NCBI RefSeq assembly: GCF_028767125.1
Contig: NZ_JAKCWP010000002.1
Span: 248,001 to 312,000, forward strand
Length of the DNA: 64,000 nucleotides
From: Chelativorans sp. YIM 93263
Lineage (GTDB): Bacteria; Pseudomonadota; Alphaproteobacteria; Rhizobiales; Rhizobiaceae
Direction: 5' to 3'
Numbering within the stretch: the stretch's first letter is position 1; the number at the start of each line of letters is the position of its first letter. A program made the translations under genes and the position numbers. The notes beneath the pieces were generated by a model that saw nothing but the letters and a program-made list of their open reading frames with translations, had not been told where the DNA came from and ran no database searches. Shown here in pieces: positions 3,852-60,033 of this stretch.

Positions 3852-3872
3852 GCATTGCACCATTTGCAATGC
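3852..3872. promoter_or_regulatory. Perfect inverted repeat, candidate operator
   Basis: GCATTGCA (3852-3859), five-base spacer, TGCAATGC (3865-3872). It overlaps the putative -35 of the DUF1127 promoter and lies about 50 bp upstream of the divergent tauE-type start. A further TGCA element follows at 3878-3881 (ATGCAAC). The regulator is unknown. Confidence 0.5.
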
Positions 3873-3892
3873 TGCTATGCAACATTTGCTAT
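3864..3892 (+). promoter_or_regulatory. Candidate promoter for the DUF1127/small-RNA transcript
   Basis: TTGCAA (3864-3869), 17 bases, TGCTAT (3887-3892), an acceptable alphaproteobacterial housekeeping-type promoter. A transcript would begin near 3900, some 70 bases before the DUF1127 start. In Rhodobacter sphaeroides the corresponding locus depends on RpoH-type factors; I do not see an unambiguous heat-shock promoter here. Confidence 0.4.
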
Positions 3893-3920: not shown

Positions 3921-3959
3921 ATGGCTGCAAGACGGTTAGAGACCGCACAGACCAAGTGA
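3921..3959 (+). CDS. Possible 12-codon upstream ORF
   Basis: ATG 3921 to TGA 3957 encodes MAARRLETAQTK. It has a better Shine-Dalgarno sequence (GAGAAGGA at 3906-3913, 7 bases before ATG) than the DUF1127 start at 3969, only nine bases after this stop. It could couple translation of the two reading frames. Too short to judge by composition. Confidence 0.3.
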   Translation: MAARRLETAQTK

Positions 3960-3968
3960 GCAAGACTG

Positions 3969-4109
3969 ATGAACCTGATCCGCAATTATCGTAACTGGCG
4001 CCGTTACCGGCAGACGGTTAGCGAGCTTAGCCAGCTCTCGAATCGTGAACTGACCGATCTGGGCATTGCCCGCGGCGATATTCCGTTCGTAGCACGGAAG
4101 TCTCTGTAA
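3969..4109 (+). CDS. DUF1127 small basic protein
   Basis: 46 residues, MNLIRNYRNWRRYRQ... then a core VSELSQLSNRELTDLGIARGDIP. The ELxxLSxRELxDLGIxRxDI pattern is the DUF1127 signature, complete here. These arginine-rich proteins of alphaproteobacteria affect RNA turnover and stress or phosphate responses. In Rhodobacter sphaeroides a DUF1127 protein (CcaF1) is encoded just upstream of, and co-transcribed with, the CcsR small RNAs; the same arrangement is seen here, with three CCTCC-loop hairpins starting 13 bases after the stop. The start has only a weak ribosome site, so coupling to the preceding 12-codon frame is plausible. Confidence 0.9.
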   Translation: MNLIRNYRNWRRYRQTVSELSQLSNRELTDLGIARGDIPFVARKSL

Positions 4110-4121
4110 TTCACGGAATTT

Positions 4122-4154
4122 CGTCAGGGCCTCCTCCTCCTCCCAGCCCTGACG
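4122..4154 (+). ncRNA. Cuckoo/CcsR-type hairpin 1 (CCTCC loop)
   Basis: CGTCAGGGC (4122-4130) pairs perfectly with GCCCTGACG (4146-4154). The 15-base loop is a run of CTC repeats containing CCTCCTCC, complementary to the Shine-Dalgarno consensus. It is the first of three similar hairpins directly downstream of the DUF1127 gene on the same strand. The combination matches the cuckoo RNA family known from alphaproteobacteria. Processing into a separate RNA is inferred. Confidence 0.75.
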
Positions 4155-4159
4155 GATAG

Positions 4160-4191
4160 GACCGGTAATCACCTCCTCCCGATTACCGGTC
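4160..4191 (+). ncRNA. Cuckoo/CcsR-type hairpin 2 (CCTCC loop)
   Basis: GACCGGTAATC (4160-4170) pairs perfectly with GATTACCGGTC (4181-4191), an 11-bp stem around the 10-base loop ACCTCCTCCC. The loop is identical to that of hairpin 3 although the stems differ completely, so loop sequence rather than stem sequence is conserved within the array. Confidence 0.8.
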
Positions 4192-4201
4192 GACAAAAAC
4201 G

Positions 4202-4241
4202 ACACCCGCCGGACCTCCTCCCCCGGCGGGTGTTGTTTTTT
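4202..4241 (+). ncRNA. Cuckoo/CcsR-type hairpin 3 with terminator
   Basis: ACACCCGCCGG (4202-4212) pairs perfectly with CCGGCGGGTGT (4223-4233) around the loop ACCTCCTCCC, followed by TGTTTTTT (4234-4241). The last hairpin therefore doubles as a rho-independent terminator for the DUF1127/small-RNA transcript. The T tract on this strand fixes the orientation: the loops read CCUCC in RNA, not GGAGG. Confidence 0.8.
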
Positions 4242-4318: not shown

Positions 4319-7114
4319 CTACTCGGCCTCGCCTTCATCGGTCGAGGCGTTTTCGCCCGCTGGAACATCGCTGCTTCCCAAGACCTCGACCTCCTCATCA
4401 TCGGCTTGCGGTTCAGAAATCCGCTCCACCGAGACGACCCGTTCGCCATCGGCGGTATTAAAGATCGTGACCCCTTTGGTCGCGCGGCTGGCGATCCGAA
4501 TTCCCGAGACCGGCACACGAATGACCTGGCCCGCGTTGGAGACCAGCATGATTTGATCCTCGGGCGCGACGGGGAAAGCAGCTACCAAGGGACCGATTTC
4601 ATCGCGTTTCGAAACATCCGTTGCGCGAATACCTTTCCCGCCACGGCCAATTACACGAAAATCGTAGGAGGACGAGCGCTTGCCGTAGCCGTACTCGCTG
4701 ACGGTCAGCACCATCTGCTCGTGCGCCTTCAATTCCTCGTACCGCTCAGGAGAAAGGCTGGCCTCTTCGCCGACATCTTCGTTGGTTAGCGCGATCTCCT
4801 CTTCCTCGTCGCCATTGGACGACCGGCGGTCTGCCGCCGCCTGCTTCAGATAGGCCGCACGTTCCGCAGGCGTGGCTTCGACGTGTTCCAGAATGGCCAT
4901 GGAGATAATCTTGTCGCCATCGGCGAGATTGATGCCGCGAACGCCGATCGAATTGCGCCCGGCAAACACACGCACACCCGTTACCGGGAAACGGATACAC
5001 TGGCCGGAGGCAGCGGTCAGAAGTACGTCATCATTCTCGGTGCAGGTATAGACGCCGAGGATTTCGTCGCTTTGCTCCTCCAGCTTCATGGCGATTTTGC
5101 CGCCACGGTTCACCTGCACGAAATCCGAAAGTTTGTTGCGCCTCACGGTGCCGCGCGTGGTGGCGAACACGACATCCAGCTCGGCCCAGCTTTCCTCGTC
5201 CTCGGGTAAGGGCATGATCGACGTGATGCGCTCGCCTTCCTTGAGCGGCAACATATTGCGCAGGAACTTTCCGATCGACTGCGGCGAACCCACGGGCAGG
5301 CGCCAGACCTTTTCCTTGTAGACGATGCCACGCGAGGAGAAGAAGAGGATCGGCGTGTGCGTGTTGGCCACGAAGAGCCGCGTGACGAAGTCCTCGTCCT
5401 TGGTCGACATACCTGAGCGGCCCTTGCCGCCGCGCGCCTGCGCCCGATAGAGCGAGAGCGGCACCCGCTTGATATAGCCCTTGTGAGTGACGGTGACGAC
5501 CATATCCTCTCGCTGGATTAGGTCTTCGTCCTCCATGTCGGCGCCGCCTTCGGTGATCTCGGTGCGGCGCGGGGTGCCAAACTCGTCACGCACGGCAACC
5601 AACTCATCCTTGACGATCTGCTGGATGCGCGCGCGCGAGGATAGGATTTCGAGATAATCCTGAATTTGGGAACCGATCTTGTTCAGCTCGTCGGCGATCT
5701 CGTCGCGGCCGAGTGCGGTGAGGCGCTGCAGACGCAGCTCCAGAATGGCGCGGGCCTGCTCCTCGGACAGGTTGTAGGTCCCGTCCTCGTTCACCTTGTG
5801 GCGCGGATCGGCGATGAGCGTGATCAGCGCTTCCACGTCATGCGCCGGCCAGCGCCGCTCCATCAGTTGCTCGCGCGCCGTCTGCGGATCGGGCGCGCGG
5901 CGGATCAGATTGATGACCTCGTCAATATTGGCCACTGCAATGGCAAGACCTACCAGCACGTGCGCCCGTTCGCGGACCTTGCGCAGGAGATACTTCGTGC
6001 GGCGGCTAACCACGTCTTCCCGGAAGGCGACGAAGGCCCGCAAGACGTCGAGCAGTGTCATCTGCTCCGGCTTGCCACCGTTGAGCGCCACCATGTTAGT
6101 GCCGAAGGAGGTCTGCAGCGGCGTGAAGCGATAGAGCTGGTTGAGCACCACCTCGGCATTGGCATCGCGCTTCAGTTCCACGACCACGCGATAGCCCTGC
6201 CGATCGCTCTCATCGCGGATGTCGGAAATGCCTTCGATGCGCTTGTCGCGCACAAGCTCGGCCATCTTCTCGATCATCTGCGCCTTGTTAACCTGGTAAG
6301 GCACCTCGGTGACGATGATCGCCTCGCGCTCGCCGCGGATCTGCTCGAATTCGGCCTTGCCGCGCATGATCACGGAGCCGCGCCCCGTCGAGTAAGCGCT
6401 GTGGATGCCCGAACGGCCGAGAATGATGCCGCCGGTCGGAAAATCCGGGCCGGGGATGATTTCCATGAGCCGCGAAAGCTCAATCGCAGGATCATCGATC
6501 AGTGCCACGCACCCATCGACCACTTCGGCGAGATTGTGCGGCGGAATGTTGGTGGCCATGCCGACGGCAATACCGCCGGAGCCGTTCACCAGAAGATTGG
6601 GAAAGCGCGCCGGAAGCACCTCCGGTTCCTGCGCAGCACCGTCATAGGTATCCCGCCAGTCGACTGTGTCCTTGTCGATATCTTCCAAGAGCTCGTGCGC
6701 AGCCTTGGTCAGGCGCGCCTCGGTGTAACGCATCGCCGCCGGCGGATCACCGTCGATCGAACCGAAATTGCCCTGGCCGTCGATGAGTTGCAGCCGCATC
6801 GACCAGGGCTGCGCCATGCGCACAAGGGCATCATAGATCGCCGCGTCGCCATGAGGGTGGTATTTACCCATCACATCGGCGACAGGGCGCGCGGACTTCA
6901 CATATTTACGGTTCCAGTGATAGCCGCTCTCGTGAGAGGCATAGAGAATGCGCCGATGCACCGGCTTCAGCCCGTCGCGCACGTCCGGCAGCGCGCGGCT
7001 CACGATCACGCTCATCGCGTAATCGAGATATGAACGCTGCATTTCCTCAATAATGGAAATAAATTCGATATCGTCGGGCTCGCCGGGCCCGCTCGGCGTC
7101 GTCTGGTCAGTCAA
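4319..7114 (-). CDS. gyrA: DNA gyrase subunit A
   Basis: 931 residues, longer than the roughly 875 of E. coli. GyrA cuts and rejoins DNA in the A2B2 gyrase that introduces negative supercoils. The breakage-reunion domain opens with [28 protein letters not shown], cut here at its start; the catalytic tyrosine is in AAMRYTE near residue 130. The C-terminal beta-pinwheel includes the GyrA-box-like [10 protein letters not shown] at about 558. A charged insert near 755-790 ([13 protein letters not shown]) and an acidic tail ([10 protein letters not shown]...DEGEAE) account for the extra length. The quinolone pocket reads [10 protein letters not shown], i.e. alanine where E. coli has Ser83. Two possible promoters lie upstream at 7150-7240. 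Confidence 0.97.
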
Positions 7115-59037: not shown

Positions 59038-59913
59038 TCAGCTCTTTGCCGCTGTGTCGGCCTCGGCAGGCTTCTCGGCCTCGGCAGGCTTATCAGCATC
59101 GCTCGCAACCTGCTCGCCGGCGCCCGCCTCCGGCTCGGCTGCAGGTTCAGCCGGCGCGTCTTCGAGCACGCGCTCGCTCGGGGTCTCTTCGGCTGCACCG
59201 ATATCAACTCCCATAGAGCCCTGCTGGCGTTCAATGCCGTCGATCGCCGCCTTGGCAACCAGATCACAATAAAGCGAGATCGCACGCGCAGCGTCGTCAT
59301 TGCCCGGAATCGGATAATCGATCATGTCGGGATCACTGTTCGAGTCGACAATGGCGATCACAGGGATACCGAGACGACGGGCTTCCTGAACGGCGATCGC
59401 TTCCTTGTTGGTATCGATCACGAACATCATGTCCGGCGTCGAACCCATGTCGCGGATACCGCCCAATGCGAGCTCCAGCTTGTCGCGCTCGCGCTCCAGG
59501 TTCAGCCGTTCTTTCTTCGTAAAACGCTGCGATTCCTCGCTTGAAAGGAGTTCATCCAGCCGGCGCAGGCGCTGGATCGAATGTGAGATCGTCTTCCAGT
59601 TAGTCATCATGCCGCCGAGCCAACGCGAATTCACGTAGTACTGCGCGCAGCGCTTGGCCGAGTCGGACACAATGTCAGAGGCCTGACGCTTGGTGCCGAC
59701 GAAGAGCACGCGACCGCCCTTGGCGACCGTATCGGAAATTGCCTTGAGGGATTGGTGCAGCAGCGGCACCGTCTGGCTCAGGTCGATGATGTGAATGTTG
59801 TTGCGAGCGCCGAAGATATACGGGCCCATTTTCGGGTTCCAGCGGTGTGTCTGGTGTCCGAAGTGCACACCAGCTTCGAGAAGCTGGCGCATGCTGAAAT
59901 CAGGCAATGCCAT
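59038..59913 (-). CDS. rpsB: 30S ribosomal protein S2, extended acidic tail
   Basis: 291 residues. S2 bridges the head and body of the 30S subunit. [28 protein letters not shown] (core [16 protein letters not shown]) opens it, with [15 protein letters not shown] and [19 protein letters not shown] following. The E. coli protein ends near residue 241; here about 45 extra residues, mostly Ala, Glu, Pro ([32 protein letters not shown]), follow. A structured leader and a strong promoter lie upstream. Confidence 0.97.
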
Positions 59914-59936
59914 CTCTTTTATCCTTTCCGGTTCTG

Positions 59937-59976
59937 CCTCCGTGGATCGTCAGGCGGCTTGCGCCGCCACCGGAGG
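59937..59976 (-). promoter_or_regulatory. Structured rpsB leader
   Basis: CCTCCG (59937-59942) pairs with CGGAGG (59971-59976), enclosing a strong inner hairpin GGCGGC-TTGC-GCCGCC (59953-59968), which on the transcribed strand has a GCAA tetraloop. The structure ends 23 bases before the rpsB start and its own GGAGG is inside the outer stem. A leader able to bind S2 for feedback control is a reasonable reading. Confidence 0.45.
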
Positions 59977-60033
59977 TGTCAGCCGGATTTCTCCCGACTG
60001 AAGCCCATTGATCCACGTGTGGAATGCGCGCGC

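Follow-up and report, generated by a model that had tools for sequence, protein, structure and literature searches.

What is the group of short hairpins that stands directly behind a 46-codon DUF1127 gene in Chelativorans sp. YIM 93263, from which strand is it read, and what would switch it on? We addressed these questions with a 64,000-nucleotide stretch of contig NZ_JAKCWP010000002.1 (referred to as the window, and always meaning that whole stretch), with searches of the organism's own genome covering 27 contigs and 4.25 Mb, and with related loci. The locus joins two published lines of work, that on VtlR/LsrB-activated DUF1127 genes and that on ar14/cuckoo RNAs with anti-Shine-Dalgarno (aSD) loops, and we consider it likely that it forms a CIN1-like operon of two parts, in which an LsrB-activated transcript would yield both a DUF1127 protein and ar14 aSD RNAs.

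A DUF1127 gene followed by three hairpins

The gene and the array comprise the following features:

3969-4109, + strand: DUF1127 gene, 46 aa, arginine-rich, ATG at 3969 and TAA ending at 4109
4116-4238, + strand: ar14 RNA array (RF02344), Rfam match of 99.2 bits against a cut-off of 58.8, model positions 1-123 of 123
4122-4130/4146-4154, + strand: arms of hairpin 1, 9-bp perfect stem, loop of 15 (CTCCTCCTCCTCCCA)
4160-4170/4181-4191, + strand: arms of hairpin 2, 11-bp perfect stem, loop ACCTCCTCCC
4202-4212/4223-4233, + strand: arms of hairpin 3, 11-bp perfect stem, loop ACCTCCTCCC
4236-4241, + strand: T run 3' of hairpin 3, read from the sequence

The 46-codon gene matches the Pfam family DUF1127 (PF06568) at 62.6 bits (E 2.7e-17). 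What the initial annotation had described here, a DUF1127 gene, stems of 9, 11 and 11 bp, CCTCC in the loops, identical second and third loops and a closing T run, is exact in the sequence throughout. The stem of hairpin 1 reaches 11 bp if one G-U and one flanking pair are counted, and its loop exceeds loops 2 and 3 in length; the arms of hairpin 3, a probable intrinsic terminator, can be extended to 4195-4240 with 94% complementarity. A terminator scan reported the hairpin 3 stem for the - strand alone, because it admits loops of at most 8 and so passes over the + strand form. Perfect stems of at least 9 bp around a CCTCC loop are confined to these hairpins, on either strand of the whole window, and in 200 dinucleotide-preserving shuffles their mean number per window was 0.065, with no two of them within 60 nt; the cluster behind the DUF1127 gene is far beyond chance. 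Separately, CCTCC as a plain motif is unevenly distributed over the two strands of the whole window, with 111 copies on the + strand and 48 on the - strand, a more than twofold excess.

The array is an ar14 RNA

At gathering thresholds Rfam recognised two families in the window, one of which is ar14, and since the match runs over the full length of the model and lies above the cut-off, the array belongs to a known small-RNA family, kin to the cuckoo and CcsR RNAs. It has the features of ar14: three hairpins whose stems vary and whose loops leave CCUCCUCCC unpaired. The initial annotation had called it a cuckoo/CcsR-type array and proposed an Rfam model search as a check; the whole-length ar14 match, together with the published CIN1/cuckoo arrangement (PMC10253847), bears out that identity. 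The other family, the rpsB sRNA (RF01815, 43.9 bits against 40), lies at 59914-60021 on the - strand directly before an rpsB-like open-reading frame with its ATG at 59913, and is probably the rpsB leader.

Within the family, ar14 was found in 146 of 151 genomes at E <= 1e-4, in 137 of them over the cut-off, and in none of 14 control genomes, while a relative of the window's DUF1127 protein was found in 144 of the 151. A class-wide sample searched at E <= 1e-4 returned ar14 from the organism's own genome and from 6 of 189 others, none of those others above the cut-off. The three-hairpin ar14 model is thus nearly confined to the family, which is a statement about that model, as it would miss arrays with other module numbers.

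The organism's own genome contains three DUF1127 domains and six clear ar14 arrays, with E values from 7e-19 to 3e-8 and four scores above the cut-off, and a DUF1127 gene adjoins only the array in the window; the five further arrays (L002-L006) likewise have three hairpins and no DUF1127 gene nearby. An element of hairpin 1, CATCTCCTCCTC(C/T)CAGATGCGAT, is common to L003, L004 and L006. Two weaker matches (L007 and L008, E 0.007 and 0.014) came from the search at E <= 1 and were not taken as arrays, because 3 of 14 control genomes also matched at that threshold, none of them above the cut-off. The L006 array (C12:70984-71100) stands about 760 nt before an ar15 (AbcR-type) match, L072 (C12:71863-71950, 44.3 bits).

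Conservation of the unit and strand of the RNA

We compared 110 loci. Thirty were the best of the family search, a set biased to close relatives because it was picked by similarity; the other 80 ranked highest among 330 named loci (Mesorhizobium, Aminobacter, Aquamicrobium, Brucella, Phyllobacterium, Aurantimonas and others), and some species may be present in both sets. The motif CTCCTCCC occurs within 600 nt 3' of the DUF1127 gene in 109 of these 110 best-match loci, with at least three copies in 100, and the sole locus without an exact copy (L100) has variant loops. Hairpin number in the first 480 nt ranges from 0 to 9 per locus, five being commonest (35/110), with zero returned by the hairpin finder for one locus (L106), and this variation points to duplication of hairpin modules. 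In L027, L077, L092, L110 and L149 the array 3' of DUF1127 is longer, with four to eight or more hairpins that resemble repeated modules of hairpin 2 plus hairpin 3, and it has terminator-like hairpins inside. A second DUF1127-like motif accompanies the unit in 52 of the 110 best-match loci, just upstream in 44 and downstream in 8. The window has the CIN1 layout: the short DUF1127 gene shares its strand with the array and lies directly 5' of it, and the array ends in a terminator. Its flanking genes are another matter: gyrA and a TauE-like gene each adjoin the unit in one locus of the 110, the window's own, and gyrA is an incidental neighbour.

Exactly three motifs just 3' of the gene are carried by 21 of the 30 loci from the family search. 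In these 21 loci the 8-nt 5' arm comes in 17 different versions for hairpin 1 and likewise 17 for hairpin 2, where 7.8 and 7.6 of the 8 positions pair, and in only 5 for hairpin 3; the stems covary and the loops are nearly fixed. In an alignment of 20 sequences, 23 of 37 pairs have changed on both sides, and 94.8% of cells pair compared with 86.7% in shuffles (0/500 as high) and 29-47% with the partner slid, the structure having been predicted from the tested alignment itself, so that both controls tilt in its favour; in a measure of further pair types, 4 of 500 shuffles came up to the real alignment. There are 66 G-U cells on the + strand, against 14 A-C cells, which would be G-U on the - strand only, and this asymmetry points to the array being a + strand RNA.

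A VtlR/LsrB-type site upstream of the gene

The region before the gene contributes three features, the last of them putative:

3856-3869, + strand: TGCA-N6-GCAA, which forms the second half of the conserved box and differs from TGCA-N6-GCAT in one base
3867-3881, + strand: VtlR/LsrB-type site CAATGCTGCTATGCA, 13 of 15 positions shared with the published Brucella motif CAATGCAGCCATGCA (PMC12595884)
3914-3919, + strand: presumed -10-like hexamer CTATCT, from the alignment of 30 regions

When the 30 upstream regions are aligned, a block far more conserved than its flanks appears, followed by CTATCT. The stretch at 3867-3881 is the best-scoring 15-mer for CAATGCAGCCATGCA on both strands of the window, and the same motif at 12 or more of 15 positions lies within 250 nt upstream in 62 of 110 best-match loci vs. 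1 of 108 control pieces, rising to 106 of 110 (28/30 and 78/80) vs. 11 of 218 control pieces within 600 nt. Many of the far sites come from Mesorhizobium loci in which a further DUF1127 gene comes first, and lie near -296. For nfeR1 of S. meliloti the reported LsrB site is TGCA-N6-GCAT (PMC10746234), and this sequence was found upstream of 77 of the 110 best-match loci vs. 4 of 218 control pieces; in the window there is a one-mismatch copy and no exact one.

The hexamer CTATCT resembles the alphaproteobacterial sigma70 -10 element CTATAT (PMC10746234), and transcription would start a few bases 3' of it; an E. coli-type promoter scan found no promoter there. Between the hexamer and the DUF1127 gene lies a 12-codon open-reading frame (MAARRLETAQTK, 3921-3956, + strand). 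We rejected it as a leader peptide, because its ATG at 3921 is only two bases past CTATCT and precedes the presumed transcript start. A uORF is reported for the duf1127-1 gene of S. meliloti (PMC12218461).

The probable regulator is itself encoded in the genome. A LysR protein gene (L075, 4827-5717) scores 462.5 bits to PDB 9HH1, deposited as the structure of LsrB (PMC11975290), and it adjoins a TrxB-like open-reading frame, read from the sequence, and an ar15/AbcR match (C26); in Rhizobiales, lsrB shares an operon with trxB (PMC11975290). Two features of a VtlR/LsrB regulon are present, the regulator gene in the genome and the binding motif in the putative promoter (13/15). We also considered a VtlR-type regulator for the orphan arrays L002-L006, for which there was no support, as their best motif reaches 9-11 of 15 positions, the level of the control pieces; the regulator need not be common to all ar14 arrays.

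Proposed mechanism and alternatives

We propose that VtlR/LsrB, a LysR-type regulator, probably activates a promoter just 5' of 3926, and that one transcript would encode the 46-aa DUF1127 protein and then carry the three-hairpin ar14 array in its 3' part, closed by the intrinsic terminator. Processing by RNase E would probably yield small RNAs, either single hairpins or all three together, and their CCUCCUCCC loops, kept open by the variable stems, may pair with Shine-Dalgarno regions and block translation. Such pairing and silencing of mRNAs is the best-supported action for the array. NfeR1, an ar14 RNA of S. meliloti, silences mRNAs via three redundant aSD loops and pairs with the ntrB translation start (PMC10746234; PMC7143759). 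The initial annotation had offered two roles, a translational decoy or an mRNA binder, and the NfeR1 reports favour the binder, whereas we found no support for the decoy. Genome counts of CTCCTCCC (108 + 61, vs. 131 + 84 for the reversed pattern) gave no enrichment of target sites. Mimicry of the 16S tail beyond CCUCC (TCACCUCCU) was considered as well, and a search for the tail sequence matched 0 of 1 and 0 of 13 genomes; TCAC precedes 95 of the 553 CTCCTCCC motifs in the 110 best-match loci. S. meliloti has six copies, of which only NfeR1 was detected by Northern blot under the conditions tested (PMC7143759), so the window's copy could be silent.

The initial annotation had suggested RpoH dependence, and control of this same operon by RpoH as in Rhodobacter, instead of by LsrB, is in our judgement improbable: the conserved upstream block fits published VtlR/LsrB motifs and sits where an activator would bind, which makes RpoH not the best-supported regulator, even though ACTATCT-like stretches can be seen by eye before the orphan arrays L003 and L006. 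RpoH may still have a share in the control, as the -10-like CTATCT does not discriminate between sigma70 and RpoH and would be compatible with either. The ccaF1-CcsR promoter of R. sphaeroides is indeed an RpoHI/RpoHII promoter (PMC10253847), but the corresponding genes of Agrobacterium and Brucella are VtlR-activated (PMC7486931; PMC12595884).

It is less probable again that the array works chiefly in cis, on the DUF1127 mRNA itself, serving binding, stability or self-control without acting on other mRNAs. Its link to a DUF1127 gene in all but one of the best-match loci would suit such a role, as would the part that CcaF1 of Rhodobacter plays in maturing the CcsR RNAs that belong to it (PMC10253847); however, five more ar14 arrays in the genome have no DUF1127 gene, the loop is kept as an anti-Shine-Dalgarno sequence, and other mRNAs are silenced by NfeR1 (PMC10746234; PMC7143759). 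We give almost no credence to the hairpins being the 3' end of the convergent gyrA or a mere bidirectional terminator, the outcome that the initial annotation had itself named as fatal to its reading. It is true that gyrA, on the - strand, ends at 4319 and that T is found next to hairpin 3 on the - strand side as well, but gyrA has a terminator-like hairpin of its own at 4289-4268, and both its rarity as a neighbour and the excess of + strand G-U cells oppose the idea.

Returning to the LsrB-activated operon, a wider form of the proposal would have redox-responsive LsrB/VtlR drive, throughout the family, one transcript with a DUF1127 protein and an expandable aSD array, CIN1 control having changed from RpoH in Rhodobacter to LsrB in Rhizobiaceae; we regard this as an even call. 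As one transcript would carry both products, effects attributed to VtlR-activated DUF1127 proteins may partly be effects of the RNA array, and if this is true, DUF1127 deletion strains need checking for loss of the array.

Comparison with known systems

Much of what is described here has precedents. The RNA family, its loops, its variable stems and its variable module number are already published (PMC3927594), as is the link of DUF1127 with CCUCCUCCC arrays, under the name CIN1 (PMC10253847), and the locus is ordinary for its family. What is possibly unpublished is that one VtlR/LsrB site would control the protein and the array jointly: we found no paper joining VtlR with CCUCCUCCC, or CcsR with LsrB, in a search that several key papers lay outside, and LsrB has already been linked to one ar14 RNA, NfeR1 (PMC10746234).

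The array resembles ar14 Smr14C2/NfeR1 (alpha-r14) in its three hairpins, in the CCUCCUCCC of each loop and in its hypervariable stems, and the genome resembles that of S. meliloti in having several copies, six there and six clear arrays here. NfeR1, which LsrB activates, is described as a separate sRNA with its own promoter (PMC10746234; PMC7143759), whereas the array in the window follows a DUF1127 gene. SmelA075 and SmelA099 likewise consist of CCUCCUCCC hairpins, three and four in number, in which both the stems and the number of modules vary, and DUF1127 is nowhere mentioned in the available text on them (PMC3927594).

On the side of the protein gene, VtlR is an activator of atu1667 in Agrobacterium, to which it binds (PMC7486931), and of three Brucella DUF1127 genes, BAB1_0914, BAB2_0512 and BAB2_0574 (PMC12595884). 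The gene in the window is like these in being a DUF1127 gene with the same upstream motif; the available text of the two papers mentions no downstream aSD hairpin array, and PMC7486931 left undecided whether atu1667 acts as protein or as RNA.

In Rhodobacter the two parts are coupled, as the CcsR RNAs are matured by RNase E together with CcaF1, the DUF1127 protein encoded on their own transcript (PMC10253847). Agrobacterium DUF1127 proteins are reported to bind PhoR, and for Salmonella YjiS no RNA binding was found (PMC12501420), so the link that Rhodobacter shows between protein and RNA may not hold here. In layout the unit resembles ccaF1-CcsR1-4, the CIN1 of R. sphaeroides, where a DUF1127 gene, hairpins with aSD loops and a terminator form one transcription unit (PMC10253847). 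That system has four RNAs, a 71-aa protein and RpoHI/RpoHII control, whereas the unit in the window has three hairpins, a 46-aa protein and a putative VtlR/LsrB-type site.
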